The notes below the pieces were generated by a model. The model did not search any database and was not told the DNA's origin. It saw nothing but the letters and a program-made list of their open reading frames with translations. A stretch of 64,000 nucleotides of DNA from NCBI RefSeq assembly GCF_001889305.1, contig NZ_CP013074.1:1116001-1180000 (forward strand). The letters run 5' to 3'. Of this stretch, positions 28,879 to 37,209 are shown one piece after another. Both the position numbers and the translations under genes were made by a program. Numbering within the stretch: the first letter of the stretch is position 1; every line of letters begins with the position of its first letter. Source of the stretch: Dehalococcoides mccartyi (GTDB lineage Bacteria > Chloroflexota > Dehalococcoidia > Dehalococcoidales > Dehalococcoidaceae).

Positions 28879-30015
28879 ATGAAACTTACATGCTTACAGG
28901 AAAATCTGAACAAGGGTCTAAACATTGTGGGCAAAGCGGCTGCCGGCCGGACTACCCTGCCCATTACCAACAATGTCCTTATCTCAACTGATGACGGCCG
29001 TTTAAAACTAGCTGCCACCAACCTTGAAATGGCTATCAGCTGCTGGATAGGAGCCAAGATAGAGGAAGAAGGGAGCACTACCGTACCTGCCAAACTCCTG
29101 ACCGAATTTGTCAGCTCTCTGCCCAATGATAAAATAGAATTAAACCTTAATGCCAAGTCAAAGGCACTCAATATTAAATGCGCCCGCTTTGAGGCACGCA
29201 TAACAGGCGTTGACGCAAAAGACTTCCCGCCTGTACCCAAAGTGGAAAACGGAATTTCTACCAAGATTAACGTTGAGGCCTTCCGACAGGCCGTAAGCGA
29301 AGTGGTATTTGCTTCGGCAACTGACGAATCCCGCCCGGTGCTCACCGGTGTCAACGCCGAATTTGAAGGCAGCACCCTGACTCTGGCTGCAGCTGATGGT
29401 TTCCGTTTGGCTGTTTATAAACTGCCTCTGCTGGAAGCGGTAAAAACTGCTACTAAAGTAATCATTCCAGCCCGTACACTGGGTGAGCTTTCCCGCCTGG
29501 CCAGTATGGACGAGGAAGAAGCCCTGATGATAAATGTAGATACTGCCAAGAGCCAGATACTTTTCAGGCTTAAAAATATTGAGCTGGTATCTCAGCTGGT
29601 ACAGGGGAATTTCCCCCAGTACAACCAGATAATCCCCCAAAGCTTTACTACCAAAGTGGTAGTAGATGCCAACCAGTTCCTTATGGCCACCAAAACTGCT
29701 ACAATCTTTGCCCGTGACGGCGGCGGCATAGTCCGGCTGATGATGAACCCCGGCGGCAATAATACCCCCGGTAAGCTCACTATCTCAGCCCGCTCTGAAG
29801 AAGTAGGTGACAATACCGGTGAACTTGACGCTGTTATCCAGGGTGAAGAAGCTAAAATAGCCTTCAACGGCAAGTATCTTCTGGATGTGCTGGGTGTGCT
29901 TAAAGCCCAGCAAGTAGCGCTGGAAGTGACCAGCCCGTCAAGCCCCGGTGTGATAAAACCGGTAGGTGCAGACAACTATATCCACGTTATCATGCCCATG
30001 TTCGTGCAGTGGTGA
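28879..30015 (+). CDS. dnaN: DNA polymerase III sliding clamp, beta subunit
   Basis: Ring-shaped processivity factor for replication. 378 residues in three similar clamp domains; recognisable are the N-terminal MKLTCLQENLNKGL, LPITNNVLI and the C-terminal YIHVIMPM, where many clamps end in MPMRL. Here four residues, FVQW, follow MPM before the stop. GGGGGT is 6 nt upstream of the ATG. The last 26 bp overlap, on the opposite strand, the 3' end of a serine recombinase remnant. Not next to dnaA in this window. Confidence 0.97.
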   Translation: MKLTCLQENLNKGLNIVGKAAAGRTTLPITNNVLISTDDGRLKLAATNLEMAISCWIGAKIEEEGSTTVPAKLLTEFVSSLPNDKIELNLNAKSKALNIKCARFEARITGVDAKDFPPVPKVENGISTKINVEAFRQAVSEVVFASATDESRPVLTGVNAEFEGSTLTLAAADGFRLAVYKLPLLEAVKTATKVIIPARTLGELSRLASMDEEEALMINVDTAKSQILFRLKNIELVSQLVQGNFPQYNQIIPQSFTTKVVVDANQFLMATKTATIFARDGGGIVRLMMNPGGNNTPGKLTISARSEEVGDNTGELDAVIQGEEAKIAFNGKYLLDVLGVLKAQQVALEVTSPSSPGVIKPVGADNYIHVIMPMFVQW

Positions 30016-30937
30016 GTACGTTCAAATCAAGGTAACCTTTGATGCTTACACCTTCAGGAGTAGCTGAAACTTTCAAATCCAGATAGGTGTAAGCATCTTT
30101 CTTTTCAGCGTTTGAGCAATTATCTAAACAGGGCACGACTTTCGCACAAAGTTCTTTAATGCTCTCCTGCATCTCTAAAGCCTTTGCCAGGTTTTCTTTA
30201 GCCTGGATAAGACCATTCAGGCGCACCTGATCTGCTTCCCGTTCTTTTTTCATAAGGTTCATTTCATCCAGAATAATATCCGGCGTTGCCAAATCCATAC
30301 GCAGTACATTCATAAGACGCCGTTCTTGCCCATCATATCCTTTAAGACGGCGGCTTAATTCTTTAATCTCCTTGTCCATTGTACCTGTGGAATAGTGAGC
30401 CTTTTCATTTTCTACCTGTTTGCCCACTTCAGCTAACAGAAGTTCAGGCTGGCTAAGAACGCTTTTCACTTTATCCCAAACCACTTCTTCAAGCCAATCA
30501 GCTCTAATATAATGGGCATCACATATCTTTGCCCTTGATGCCGTGAGATACGTTCCACGACAATGGTAATAACGATAATTCCCTCGCAAACAACTACCGA
30601 TCAGTGAACTACCGCACTTCTCACAAACGACAAATCCAGTTAATGGATATTCATGTTTAGCTTTTCCGGAGTGGAGTCCTCTCAGTTTCGCAAGGGCAGA
30701 TTGTGCTTGTTCAAATAATTCCTGGCTAATAATAGCAGGCGTAACATCTGTAAGAACGTGCCAAGTATCTTCGTTTGTTTTCTTATGATCTTTGCCAGTA
30801 GTACGACCAAAATAAGTTATCCCTGTGTAAGCTTTATTATGAAGTACCCGATTAACAGTCCGTGCTTCCCATTTTTTACCCGTTATATATGGAAATAAAA
30901 AGAATTTAAGTGCGGTAGAACCTGTATATGACGACAC
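29990..30937 (-). pseudogene. large serine recombinase remnant, catalytic domain missing
   Basis: Open frame of 315 residues. From about residue 18 it matches a large serine recombinase: Recombinase domain (KKWEARTVNRVLHNKAYTG), a zinc ribbon (CEKCGSSL with a second Cys pair further on, CRG and C-D-A), and a long coiled coil to the end. The N-terminal resolvase domain with the nucleophile Ser is absent; the first 17 residues look like read-through noise, so the break is near base 30886. Its stop codon lies inside dnaN. It cannot recombine DNA by itself and probably marks a decayed integrated element. Confidence 0.85.
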
Positions 30938-31086: not shown

Positions 31087-32433
31087 TTATGAGGCACTTT
31101 GAGGTAGAAATACTTTAAATTCGGAGCCTTTACCCTGTTCGCTAATAACCTCAACCCGCCCTTTATACAGTTCCGAAGTGCCCTTCACTATAGACAAGCC
31201 TAGTCCTGTACCTTCTATATCCCAGTCACCCCTATAAAACCTGTCAAAAATATGGGGCAGGTGTTCCTTGCTTATGCCGATTCCGCTGTCTTGTACAGAT
31301 ACTACAATAAACCCGTCCTCTTCCTTCAGGGAAATGCCCACTTCACCCCCTGACGGGGTGTATTTCACAGCATTGGATAAAAGATTATCAAACAGGCGGT
31401 TAAACTGCTCAGCTTCGCCATATATGCTTAACCCATGTTGAATCTGGCGAACAGATTTTATTTTTTTTATTTGCATAGCGGTCTGCCATTTATCAGCACT
31501 ACTTTCCAAGGCAGCACCCAAATCTATTTTTGAGCTGTGTGACAGACGCGGGCCGGCATCAAGGCTGGCAAGTGTCATCAAATCATCTATAATAAGGGTC
31601 ATCCTCTCTACCTGTTTGACGATATTTTTAAAAGCCTGACGATACTCTTCGGAATTCCGTTCTTTCCTCAGGGCCAGCTCGGACTCTGCCCGTATCACGG
31701 TAAGGGGGGCTTTAAGGTCATGAGAAGCATCTGAAGTAAAACGGTGCTGACTCTGAATAAAACCATATACACGGTCAAATAGTGAATTGAGAGTTGAGGA
31801 AAGCTGTCCCAGTTCATCATTTTGCTTTACCGGAATACGATCCTTCAGATTAGCCGGATTGATACTATCGGTAGTTTGGGCAATCACCTTAACCTGTCTG
31901 AAAGATCTATGAGCCACAAAATACCCGAACACCGCAGCGATAATAAGGGCGAATGGAATAGTCATATAAAGTACGTGTTTATATTCATCCAGGGTACGGT
32001 AGATATAACTGGCATCACCTACATATACAAGCAGCAGATTAGCTTCAGAAACATGCTCATACCGGGTCACATATAAACGTATTTCAGGATCAGATGTTTC
32101 CAGCAGCATGCAGGGTATATCTCCGCTGGTAGCGCAGATATCTGAAACAGACGCTAAAACTATAGATTCATACACCTCACTACCAAACACAGTTCCGGTT
32201 TCTATATCATAAACATACACTAAATCAGCGGATACACTTCCCGTATAATACAAATTGTTATCACTGCCTTGGATTATCAATCCCTTGGCTTTTTCGGCTT
32301 CGCCAGCCAGAGAACTATCCAGATTGCTGAACAAATCATATGATAATAAAAAATACGATGTAAAACCAAAAAACCCAAGAACAATCAGCAATACCAGTGA
32401 ATATATGACAGTAAGCTTAGCCTTAACACTCAT
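31087..32433 (-). CDS. sensor histidine kinase
   Basis: 448 residues. Membrane helix 1 at about 7-30, an extracytoplasmic sensor of about 120 residues, membrane helix 2 at about 155-175, HAMP, then HisKA with phospho-acceptor His238 (DASHDLKAPLTVI) and an HATPase_c domain (N box NLLSNAVKYTP, G1 DSGIGI, G2 GTGLGLSIV). Its start overlaps the response-regulator stop by 4 bp (ATGA), so they are one operon. The sensor domain was not recognised; it holds two Cys (SDIC and IPCML). Ligand unknown. Confidence 0.93.
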   Translation of the reverse strand: MSVKAKLTVIYSLVLLIVLGFFGFTSYFLLSYDLFSNLDSSLAGEAEKAKGLIIQGSDNNLYYTGSVSADLVYVYDIETGTVFGSEVYESIVLASVSDICATSGDIPCMLLETSDPEIRLYVTRYEHVSEANLLLVYVGDASYIYRTLDEYKHVLYMTIPFALIIAAVFGYFVAHRSFRQVKVIAQTTDSINPANLKDRIPVKQNDELGQLSSTLNSLFDRVYGFIQSQHRFTSDASHDLKAPLTVIRAESELALRKERNSEEYRQAFKNIVKQVERMTLIIDDLMTLASLDAGPRLSHSSKIDLGAALESSADKWQTAMQIKKIKSVRQIQHGLSIYGEAEQFNRLFDNLLSNAVKYTPSGGEVGISLKEEDGFIVVSVQDSGIGISKEHLPHIFDRFYRGDWDIEGTGLGLSIVKGTSELYKGRVEVISEQGKGSEFKVFLPQSAS

Positions 32434-33098
32434 CTGTCTAGCCTGTATCCCGCCCCGCGCAAGGTTTTGATAGGACCAGTCCGCGCATCCCAGCCAAGCT
32501 TTTGGCGTAACTTTTTTATAAGCGAATCAATTGAGTTTGAAGCAGAGGTACTTTCCGCTCCCCAAAGATGTTCTTCCATCATTGACCTGGTAATAAGCAC
32601 GTTTGGCATAGTGATGAAGTATTCCAGCATTTGAAATTCCGCCGCAGTCAGTTTAATCTCGTTGTTACCATTTTTGACTTCATGGGACAAATTATTAAAA
32701 AATATGCCGCCTATCTCTACAACAGGCGACATAACCCTTGATGCCCTGCGTTGCAATGCCCGGATACGGGCAAACAATTCGCTGTAAGCAAATGGTTTAC
32801 AAAGGTAGTCATCTGCCCCTGCATCCAAACTTTTTACCTTTGATTCAAGGGTATCTCTGGCTGTCAGCATAAGAATAGGTAAGGCGGCACCTTCAGCTCT
32901 AACCATACGGCAAACTTCAATGCCGTTTTTGTCAGACAGACCAATATCCAATATCATCAAATCAAATTCTCCATTCCGGGCAAAGTACTCACCCGAAATG
33001 CCGTCACAGGCATATTCAACTACATGCCCAAACTCACCAAGCGCCCGTCTCAGCGTTTGACACAGAGCTTTATCATCATCAACCAACAAAATCCGCAA
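32430..33098 (-). CDS. OmpR/PhoB-family response regulator
   Basis: 222 residues: receiver domain with the acidic pair DDD at 7-9, phospho-acceptor Asp51 (LMILDIGL), Thr in MLTARD and Lys in CKPFAYSEL; then a winged-helix Trans_reg_C domain (EFQMLEYFITMPNVLITR, SIDSLIKKLRQKL). It is transcribed away from a secreted-protein gene across a 146-bp gap that holds four 11-bp-spaced repeats, the typical site layout for this family. Self-regulation and control of the divergent gene are likely but inferred. Confidence 0.94.
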   Translation of the reverse strand: MRILLVDDDKALCQTLRRALGEFGHVVEYACDGISGEYFARNGEFDLMILDIGLSDKNGIEVCRMVRAEGAALPILMLTARDTLESKVKSLDAGADDYLCKPFAYSELFARIRALQRRASRVMSPVVEIGGIFFNNLSHEVKNGNNEIKLTAAEFQMLEYFITMPNVLITRSMMEEHLWGAESTSASNSIDSLIKKLRQKLGWDARTGPIKTLRGAGYRLDR

Positions 33099-33165
33099 TT
33101 AACAAAACCCTTTATCTATTCTCTATCCATAATCCCTAATAATAGCACTATTTTACCCTCAATGG

Positions 33166-33205
33166 TCATCTGATAATCATCTGTTGTTCATCTGGTGTTC
33201 ATTTT
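33166..33205. promoter_or_regulatory. four phased direct repeats, probable response-regulator operator
   Basis: TCATCTG begins at 33166, 33177 and 33188, and a weaker copy TCATTTT at 33199: exactly 11 bp apart each. OmpR/PhoB-type regulators bind such head-to-tail 11-bp sites. It lies between the divergent regulator gene and the crystallin-like gene. Possible -10 boxes for the latter follow (TATGCT at 33208 or TAGGCT at 33213). Confidence 0.75.
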
Positions 33206-33244
33206 CATATGCTAGGCTGTATTCAAAAGCTCTGAGGAGTGATT

Positions 33245-33916
33245 ATGACTAAAGTAGTGTTTTCGATATTACTTGCAATCGTTATATCTATTCTGCCGGA
33301 AATGACCACAGTTTCTGCAATAGAACCCGTAAACAAATATTTCCCAAATCAGGGTACTCTTGATAGCACCTTTAAAACCCCACTTAGTCCCTCGGAAATA
33401 GTAGCCATGTACCCGATGTCCGCAGAAGAAGAAGCCAAAATTATCCAAGTTATACCCCAATGCCCTGTGAATGTAGATGGCACATGGTACAGAGCGGAAG
33501 AAATCACCCTTTTTAATGGGCAGCAACTCCATTTTACCACTGATAAAACAGGAGCACTGTACGCTTTTACCGATGCCAAAGCCATGGAAACATTTCTTGA
33601 AGCGGAATACGGGAAAATATATGACCTGCCATTTAATGGCAGTATACAAAACCTGAGGTTTGATCAAAGCGAACTTTTTAAAGACTGGATGTACTCAGGC
33701 GAACTTATGCAGCTTGCCCCGTTTATACAGTTATCCAATCTGGCATCACTGGGGTGGGATGATTACATATCTTCCGCCAAAATTTGCAGCACGGCACCGG
33801 TTACACTCTGGGAATATTCCGGTTTTCAGGGCAACAGCTTTACCATGCCCGCAGATTCCAATCATGCAGCGTTAACATTTGAAGGGTGGAATGACAGGGC
33901 ATCGTCTATATCTTAA
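33245..33916 (+). CDS. secreted protein with a C-terminal beta/gamma-crystallin-like motif
   Basis: 223 residues from ATG 33245, which has GAGGAG 5-6 nt upstream. A signal peptide (hydrophobic residues 4-20, cleavage probably after VSA) directs export. The middle ~130 residues are not recognised. The last ~40 (VTLWEYSGFQGNSFTMP then GWNDRASSIS) form one Greek-key motif of the beta/gamma-crystallin or peptidase-inhibitor I36 type, which can bind calcium; only one motif is present where domains usually have two. Its promoter region carries the response-regulator repeats, so it is a likely target of the system. Confidence 0.75.
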   Translation: MTKVVFSILLAIVISILPEMTTVSAIEPVNKYFPNQGTLDSTFKTPLSPSEIVAMYPMSAEEEAKIIQVIPQCPVNVDGTWYRAEEITLFNGQQLHFTTDKTGALYAFTDAKAMETFLEAEYGKIYDLPFNGSIQNLRFDQSELFKDWMYSGELMQLAPFIQLSNLASLGWDDYISSAKICSTAPVTLWEYSGFQGNSFTMPADSNHAALTFEGWNDRASSIS

Positions 33917-34332: not shown

Positions 34333-34743
34333 ATGTCCAGAATAAAAAATAGAGCGGTTCTTGTAGTATTATGTGGCGTACTGGCATTCCCCATGATAAG
34401 TTTTGCCGGGTGTGATAGTGACGAAGCATTATGGGGAGCAGCTCCGGTTTTTTCAGAAATTACTTATTGCGGGCATTTATACCGTAAATCAGGTGAAATA
34501 ATAGCCAAACAGCAAACACCTGCTGATTTGCACCCCATAGGGATTTATGACACGGCAACAAATACAGCTACTGATTATACAGCTAGCAACTTTTCGTCTC
34601 CGGATACCAATGGCAGTGCCAATCCTGTTATTTATGCAATAGATGGGGTAGAACCGGAAGAGGCAATCGCACTAAAAGTCCTGCTCATTTCCCATAAGGG
34701 AACAGTGTGGTATTACTATTTCAGATATGACAGAGTATTATAA
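34333..34743 (+). CDS. exported small protein, possibly a lipoprotein
   Basis: 136 residues, not recognised. N-terminal signal sequence (MSRIKNRAVLVVLCGVLAF) followed by SFAGC, an imperfect lipobox with Phe at -3, so lipid attachment at Cys27 is uncertain. The mature part has several Tyr/Trp and ends in WYYYFRYDRVL. No clear Shine-Dalgarno. Sits in a run of secreted proteins between 33.2 and 36.4 kb. Confidence 0.55.
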   Translation: MSRIKNRAVLVVLCGVLAFPMISFAGCDSDEALWGAAPVFSEITYCGHLYRKSGEIIAKQQTPADLHPIGIYDTATNTATDYTASNFSSPDTNGSANPVIYAIDGVEPEEAIALKVLLISHKGTVWYYYFRYDRVL

Positions 34744-34770
34744 AATCAATATGTCAAAAAGGTGCATCTC

Positions 34771-35256
34771 ATGAATGCAAAATTTCTGGCGCTATTTATC
34801 ACTATCTGCCTGCTGGTGCAGCCGCTAACCGGTTGTTTGTCAACCGGACAATGCGGTTTCAGGCTTGTCCTGATGGACAGCGCCAAAGTATTGCTTACTG
34901 ACCAGGATATTTCAGGTTTCAACTGCACCGAATGCGCCCTGATACTTAGTAAATCGGGAATTGAAAAGTGGAATGCATATTTGGGTTACAGTGATATACC
35001 CAAGCTTTCAAACGGGCTTTATTCCAAAGATTTTATTATCAGGATTGACGATGAAGAGATATGCCGGGGCAAATTCTGGTCGTCTGTTTCTTCAACCAGC
35101 ACCGAAGGGGTAATCATAACCGATTGCGTAATGGAACTAACCAGCAGTTTTAACTGCATTTATTTACAAATCAACTATCCCGCCTGCCAGCCGCTCGAAG
35201 AGGCTATTACCGCTAAAATAAGAGGGTATTTTGAAAATCGCAATATTTCCAGTTAA
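34771..35256 (+). CDS. hypothetical lipoprotein
   Basis: 161 residues, not recognised. Signal peptide with a good lipobox LTGC (Cys at about residue 22), then a Cys-containing globular part with several Cys (NCTEC, ITDC, NCIY, PAC). AAGGTG lies 6 nt before the ATG at 34771; a GTG at 34762 is less likely. Follows the previous exported-protein gene by 27 bp. Confidence 0.65.
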   Translation: MNAKFLALFITICLLVQPLTGCLSTGQCGFRLVLMDSAKVLLTDQDISGFNCTECALILSKSGIEKWNAYLGYSDIPKLSNGLYSKDFIIRIDDEEICRGKFWSSVSSTSTEGVIITDCVMELTSSFNCIYLQINYPACQPLEEAITAKIRGYFENRNISS

Positions 35257-35622: not shown

Positions 35623-36381
35623 TTACCCTTGATAAATAGTCAGTATTTCCGCAGGTGAAAGAGCACGGTTATAAATAGCTATTTCATCAATCAAACCTTT
35701 GTACAAAGTTTCGGTAAAATTCCTTCGTCCTATAAACCAGCTGCCTTCATAGGTGGGCAGAGCAGGAGAAGTATCTGTTACCTGACTTACTAACTGGCCG
35801 TTACGGTAAATACTGTAATCATTGCCGGAACGGATAATTGCAATATGAGTCCACTGGTTTAAAGGAACATCAATTTCTCCAAATTCGTGCAACTCACTGT
35901 CCGCAGAGCGGTAGTCAAAACCAAAAAGGGCTTGATTATCCCAGCCGGAAAAGACATGAAACCTGTTTGAGTCTTCATTGTCACTTCGCGTCCAGAAAAC
36001 AGGCCGGTGAGTGGTATCTGACGGGTTAATCCAGAATGAGATAGTAGCCTCGGCGGATTGGTGAAATATAAACGTCTGAGCCACCGTCACCCAGTTGTCC
36101 ACTCCATTAAAACTTAAGGCATAACCTTTTTTGCCTGTAACCCAGCTAGCACCGCTTATTACGCCGTCATTATGACTGGAGGCAGAATCATAAATGGTAT
36201 TTCCCGTACCCTCGTCCATATGCCACATGGTTACCAGCCCTTCCAGAACTTCTGTATTTTGGCTGGAGGGAGAGTTAACCGGTATGTTATCTCCGGCAGC
36301 CGGTGCAGTATTGCACCCGCCCAGCATTACTGCCGCCATGACAAAAGAAACCAGGGAAAGTGCCTTACGGCTTCGAAACAT
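35623..36381 (-). CDS. LamG-domain lipoprotein (concanavalin A-like)
   Basis: 252 residues from ATG 36381, which has a strong GGAGG 7 nt upstream. Signal peptide and lipobox LGGC, a Pro/Ser-rich linker, then one laminin-G/LamG-like jelly-roll domain of ~200 residues (MWHMDEGTGNTIYDSA at its start, FNGVDNWV, SFWINPS, WTHIAIIRSG, YRNGQLV, GLIDEIAIYNRALSPAEI at its end). Such domains bind carbohydrate or protein at the cell surface. The last strand signature DEIAIYNRALS is typical for LamG_3. Ligand unknown. Confidence 0.85.
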   Translation of the reverse strand: MFRSRKALSLVSFVMAAVMLGGCNTAPAAGDNIPVNSPSSQNTEVLEGLVTMWHMDEGTGNTIYDSASSHNDGVISGASWVTGKKGYALSFNGVDNWVTVAQTFIFHQSAEATISFWINPSDTTHRPVFWTRSDNEDSNRFHVFSGWDNQALFGFDYRSADSELHEFGEIDVPLNQWTHIAIIRSGNDYSIYRNGQLVSQVTDTSPALPTYEGSWFIGRRNFTETLYKGLIDEIAIYNRALSPAEILTIYQG

Positions 36382-37209
36382 GGCAAACCTCCTAATGCAA
36401 TTACGAAGATACCTGCTCAATTGATAAGATTTTAACCCCGCAGATTGGTAAATACAATCCCCGTATTTTTATCCGCAAAGATATACTATGCAGGTAACGG
36501 AAAGCTTGTTGCTCCCGCTTTGTCGTTACATTATTCAATCCTGCCGATTTCTTGGTAAGGCTGATACCCGCCAAATGGTACAGCGGAATATGCCTGAGTT
36601 AGATCCGGCCGCACCCGTTAATTTAAATAATATGCCCGCTCCCGCACATCTGTTTACACCGGAACCATAGAATTCGAGATGCGTAAAAGTTTTAAACGCG
36701 GCTGACCTTTTAGATACCCTGCCTTAAAGCGGCAAACTTAGCATTACCGGCATAGGCAAAAAAGCATACCCCTGCCAAGTCTAGAACAAATTTCGGATAT
36801 TTTTGAAGCAAACGAATGACTGTTATTCGAAAAAATCCCACAGGGTTTTGGCAGGCCGTTACTCACGCCTATCTCTTTGCCAATGCCCATTTCAATAAAA
36901 CATCTAAAAGCATCTATTATCAATCATGCCGCTAAAGGGCAAATCTATCAAACTAGACTGTCTGGTTTCACCTCTTCATACCTGTGCGGATTAACAATCA
37001 AAAACAGGGCTGGTATGGAAAACATTAATCAAGCACCGGATACCCATGGACTGGCAATAAAATTTGAGCATAGAACTGCGGGGGTCTTCGATAGTCAGGT
37101 TAAGCCCTATCTAAATGCATATCCAAAATACTATATTGAAGCTGATTTGTTTTAGCCTTACAATAAGTTGTAATTATGCTACTGGAATCCGATAAAACAG
37201 GATTAATAA
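36382..37209. other. intergenic stretch without a supported gene
   Basis: 828 bp between the LamG gene and the DUF1801 gene. Two open frames, 36488-36670 and 36877-37155 (plus), have no Shine-Dalgarno and no recognisable motif; the second (92 codons) is hydrophilic and could be a decayed coding region. No terminator-like hairpin or RNA fold was obvious. Confidence 0.5.

Follow-up and report, generated by a model that had tools for sequence, protein, structure and literature searches.

A predicted PhoB-type operator-promoter between a two-component system and a secreted crystallin-like protein gene in Dehalococcoidales

Four short repeats lie one behind the other, 11 bp apart, between a two-component system and a divergently transcribed gene encoding a secreted crystallin-like protein, which raises the question of whether they are the operator through which the former controls the latter. 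We consider it likely (probability about 0.85) that 33165-33218 functions as a class II promoter of the PhoB kind, dependent on an activator; the regulator encoded at 32430-33098 would bind it as tandem dimers, activating the secreted-protein gene (Table 1). An earlier note on this DNA had reported the four phased repeats between divergent genes, and their exact positions, their strand, and a chance test bear this out; TCATCTG starts at 33166, 33177, and 33188 and TCATTTT at 33199, all on the plus strand. To the repeats, with which the earlier note had stopped, we add their in-phase run into an extended -10; the whole element reads, in one register, GTCATCTGATA ATCATCTGTTG TTCATCTGGTG TTCATTTTCAT A-TGC-TAGGCT (33165-33218). 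The TG of the extended -10 is located exactly 11 bp past the start of the last TCAT, and the extended -10 ends 26 bp ahead of the ATG of the secreted-protein gene (33245). A sigma-70 scan of 33000-33400 found no promoter, and no -35 hexamer is recognisable there.

Table 1. Coordinates (in the window), strand, and basis of the features discussed.
Feature	Position	Strand	Basis
Four tandem 11-bp operator units, GTCATCTGATA / ATCATCTGTTG / TTCATCTGGTG / TTCATTTTCAT	33165..33208	+	sequence, chance test, phylogenetic footprint
Extended -10 TGC-TAGGCT (TGCTAGGCT)	33210..33218	+	sequence, footprint across genomes
Secreted protein with C-terminal beta-gamma-crystallin domain, predicted target gene	33245..33916	+	domain search, predicted model, motifs
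OmpR/PhoB-type response regulator (Response_reg + Trans_reg_C), predicted repeat binder	32430..33098	-	domain search
Partner sensor histidine kinase (extracytoplasmic domain of ~110-130 residues, HAMP, HisKA, HATPase_c)	31087..32433	-	domain search
Candidate extended -10 of the regulator-kinase operon, TGCTATTAT	33139..33147	-	sequence; inference

On both strands of the window (i.e., the whole stretch of DNA analysed, 64 kb), the element is the sole place where at least three TCAT lie in 11-bp phase, and at none of the other periods from 8 to 15 bp do even three TCAT fall into phase. Three phased TCAT are expected 0.005 times per window by chance (200 Markov-1 simulations); the same 200 simulations gave zero cases of four phased TCAT and of two or three phased TCATCTG. 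Across all 1.52 Mb of the genome, the composite pattern TCAT-N7-TCAT-N7-TGNTANNNT has a single match, which is this element. A larger regulon in the same genome was rejected, as up to two mismatches gave 37 matches versus 32 for a reversed control, which is no excess. The sole other one-mismatch element of the genome lies outside the window (G000 C1:1045849-1045879, minus strand), where a different OmpR-family regulator starts 5 bp away; it is possibly due to chance.

Head-to-tail repeats with an 11-bp period, as found at 33165-33208, are characteristic of OmpR/PhoB-family operators; PhoB-family effector domains bind head-to-tail on 11-nucleotide direct-repeat units (PMC4415409), and the four units are predicted to be binding sites for two regulator dimers. 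At 33165-33218, the repeats also take the place of a -35, with constant spacing to the -10, as in PhoB-type class II promoters; PhoB sites in pho promoters overlie the -35 region, and there PhoB makes contact with sigma and RNA polymerase (PMC3348028). The regulator itself combines a receiver with a winged-helix Trans_reg_C domain (PF00072, 4.5e-25; PF00486, 2.9e-19; both above gathering scores), and its assignment to the OmpR/PhoB family by the earlier note is thus correct. It scores below the cut-off of the PhoB model (TIGR02154; 173.5 bits versus 296.2) and of every listed NCBIfam equivalog and is therefore not PhoB itself.

In the mechanism that we propose, the kinase would sense an outside signal, leading to phosphorylation of the regulator, and the phosphorylated regulator would bind the four head-to-tail units as two tandem dimers, with the promoter-proximal units covering the place of the missing -35. 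Because these units occupy the -35 position, the bound regulator would recruit RNA polymerase, which would recognise only the extended -10 (TGCTAGGCT), and the secreted beta-gamma-crystallin-domain protein would be switched on. We infer, in this scheme, the binding by this particular regulator, activation over repression, the dependence on phosphorylation, and the signal. Matches to the fold of the sensor's outer domain are weak (PAS- or PhoQ-like, none at E <= 0.001) and do not point to a particular signal. Two cysteines in this outer domain, to which the earlier note had drawn attention, did not hold up as a feature, as they are confined to this genome's sensor and missing in all ten others in the alignment, even the nearest (71% identity); a two-Cys redox sensor was rejected for this reason. 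The notion of sensor and secreted protein as one signalling unit is compatible with the conserved synteny.

We computed directly the presence and phase of the repeats, their constant spacing to the -10, their conservation with the module, and the identity of register to Escherichia coli phoA. The pho box before annotated E. coli phoA reads GTCATAAAGTT GTCACGGCCGA GACT-TATAGT, an 11+11+4+hexamer register; set out in this register, the element reads TTCATCTGGTG TTCATTTTCAT ATGC TAGGCT, and its core-to-core and core-to-hexamer distances equal those of phoA. The two share head-to-tail units of 11 bp with TCA(T/C) as core, a 14-nt distance between the final core and the -10 hexamer, the lack of a good -35, and an OmpR/PhoB-type regulator with a Trans_reg_C domain. 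The element differs from phoA in having four units, not two, and an extended -10; in addition, it does not represent a phosphate regulon on present evidence, since the regulator is below the PhoB cut-off and its neighbour is a secreted crystallin-like protein. A distant phylum thus appears to use the pho-box register without change, and for a target with no obvious link to phosphate. An 11-bp period of direct repeats is also shared with Mycobacterium tuberculosis PhoP, whose sites are 7-bp motifs with a 4-bp spacer to which a cooperative OmpR/PhoB-family dimer binds (PMC4832192); core sequence and regulon differ from those here. The operator-promoter is of the known PhoB kind, and its two-component system is undescribed; the open literature, as far as we searched it, treats two-component systems of this group solely alongside reductive dehalogenases.

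Conservation was assessed across genomes of the order and class, with orthologues defined by reciprocal synteny or best match rather than as a clade from a regulator tree. An alignment query of the genome contigs returned, as named relatives, only Dehalococcoidales/Dehalococcoidia metagenome bins, and a single-sequence query returned none; we take three sister-genus genomes (G032-G034) to be compatible with Dehalogenimonas. The regulator-kinase pair divergent from a crystallin-like gene is present in eight genomes (this genome, G000, as well as G001, G032, G033, G034, G136, G139, and G140), twice in G033 and in G034; the module proteins of G001, the second genome of the genus, are 78%, 71%, and 70% identical to the regulator-kinase pair and crystallin-like protein described here. 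The earlier note would have given up its proposal if the repeats were not conserved in orthologous promoters; they are, with four TCAT units upstream of the target in G001 and one sister-genus locus (G033a) and two copies in most others (G034a, G034b, and G139), in the same register to the -10. The corresponding region of G032a carries GTCATAATTCT-GTCAGG. In both genomes of the genus, each of the four TCAT cores is retained, as is the extended -10, but the subsequent CTG is not. TCATCTG, the repeat given by the earlier note, is exact as to positions; as a consensus it was rejected, as CTG varies among the relatives' sites. The informative core is (G/A/T)TCAT, and what is conserved is (G/T)TCAT at 11 bp with a fixed distance to the -10.

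The same register recurs beyond the module. Loci of related regulators with other neighbours (G032b, G036, G110, G132, G142, and G144) contain TTCAT units 11 bp apart and 11 bp before a -10. The TG of TGNTANNNT follows the last TCAT at 11 bp in G000, G001, G032b, G033a, G034a, and G034b, as well as in both G139 loci, G142, and G144; the spacing is the same in G036, G110, and G132, whose -10s are of the TGTTAAA type. The 19 upstream regions of regulators contain 21 TCAT pairs at 11 bp (and 9 at 22 and 5 at 33 bp), versus a mean of 0.195 and a maximum of 3 pairs at 11 bp in 2000 shuffles. Phase and conserved register together support the earlier proposal that an OmpR/PhoB-type operator of tandem 11-bp sites would control the secreted gene. 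The TCAT core is lost in G136, G137, and G140; despite this loss, G137 has two 11-mers identical at 10/11 positions in unchanged register, which suggests drift of the repeat sequence within a retained architecture. In five regulators (G033b, G136, G137, G139, and G140), the sites of which depart from TCATC, the wing motif has Tyr in place of Arg (VYGxGYR or IYGxGYR versus VRGxGYR), which hints that regulator wing and operator site may co-evolve across lineages.

Genome-wide specificity was assessed by pattern search. The composite pattern gave 45 matches in 156 genomes of the order, versus 4 for the reversed control. With a stricter 32-base pattern, all 15 matches came from four genomes of this family; the 389 other genomes of the class, out of 393, had none, and neither did the control. 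When gaps of 3-15 were allowed in both places, 25 of 57 matches in G032-G034 had exactly the 7/7 combination, one of 169. Elements number 8 in G032, 7 in G033, and 10 in G034, all of which have the crystallin-like gene; family members without this gene (G002, G029, G030, G031, and G035) have none, and G036 has one. The sister-genus elements mostly precede predicted secreted, lipoprotein, or membrane genes; judged from their sequences, the genes behind them include ABC-2-type permeases and a sigma-factor-like gene, and the gene behind the element of G142 and G144 is periplasmic-adaptor-like. Two further copies in G033 (L119 ~2329, minus strand, and L120 ~2422, plus strand) precede short fragments that have the C-terminal crystallin domain only, with a transposase-like ORF beside one of them, an arrangement that looks like duplication or disruption of promoter and gene end by insertion elements.

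We rate as an even chance the broader possibility of an undescribed Dehalococcoidales envelope-response regulon, in which one regulator lineage would control a secreted calcium-binding crystallin-like protein and, in each of the three sister-genus genomes, 7-10 secreted/lipoprotein/membrane promoters, the regulon being reduced to one promoter in the two Dehalococcoides-like genomes with the module, with wing and operator apparently changing together. The operator definition allows candidate regulons to be listed in relatives, a poorly explored group, and at this locus a complete circuit (kinase, regulator, operator, promoter, and target) is readable from sequence.

The operator may be real and yet be bound mainly by a paralogous response regulator of the same genome. 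The genome has many other response regulators (23 matches to the regulator encoded at 32430-33098), and the 11-bp direct repeats recognised by OmpR-family members resemble each other (PMC4415409), so a paralogue could bind. We consider this unlikely, as in many genomes the element adjoins an orthologue of precisely this regulator, several sister-genus sites are within ~10 kb of its co-orthologues, and the only perfect element of this genome is in this regulator's own intergenic region; G002, without a close regulator match and without the target gene, is also without the element.

A second alternative is that the operator mainly represses, keeping polymerase off the promoter of the secreted protein and perhaps off that of the regulator. 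The last unit does sit between the -35 position and the -10, and unit 1 overlaps the probable -35 region of a minus-strand promoter with the candidate extended -10 TGCTATTAT; the latter is identical in G001, which suggests a separate promoter for the regulator, and mutual control is conceivable because of this overlap. Repression as the main role is nevertheless very improbable in our judgement, as the register is identical to that of phoA, an activated promoter, and its poor -35 and retained extended -10 are as at activator-dependent promoters. Finally, the simulations, the conservation and fixed register across genomes, and the regulon-like recurrence in the sister genus refute a functionless tandem repeat that arose by chance or from low complexity.

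We therefore return to activation of the secreted-protein gene by the adjacent regulator. The earlier note's suggestion that the regulator perhaps also controls itself did not find support here, as no TCAT-11-TCAT-11-(-10) element faces the regulator in this genome, and autoregulation through such a mirror-image element was rejected. A second, opposite-facing element ahead of the regulator gene was found solely in three distant relatives (L073 of G144, L074 of G142, and L078 of G110), where positive autoregulation is likely, judging from this arrangement.

The predicted target is a protein of 223 residues with two N/D-N/D-x-x-S/T-S motifs (DDYISS and NDRASS, at 172 and 216 of 223), which are calcium-binding motifs described for microbial beta-gamma-crystallins (PMC3551895); every aligned family member has at least one such motif. 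The predicted model, with a modest mean pLDDT of 67.6, matches 2bv2 (Foldseek E 5.5e-05, probability 1.00) as well as 1hdf and 3i9h (probability 1.00), and the Pfam crystallin and I36 matches are below gathering score; by predicted Greek-key fold and motifs, the C-terminal part is a beta-gamma-crystallin domain, and it probably binds calcium. It resembles Spherulin 3a and microbial beta-gamma-crystallins in predicted fold and in its two motifs and differs from them by an additional N-terminal region of ~130 residues present in these relatives only.

Several neighbouring genes were also observed. A serine-recombinase remnant (29990-30937, minus strand), with Recombinase and zinc-ribbon domains and no resolvase catalytic domain, is located between a sliding-clamp-like gene and the two-component system, suggesting that an integrated element may have left a scar next to the module. 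Two small secreted/lipoprotein-like genes (34333-34743 and 34762-35256, plus strand), neither of which matched a family, may belong to the module, because homologues of the former and the latter are found near the crystallin-like genes of G139 and G032, respectively. A gene encoding a lipoprotein-like protein with a LamG-type (Laminin_G_3) domain (35623-36420, minus strand) adjoins the module.
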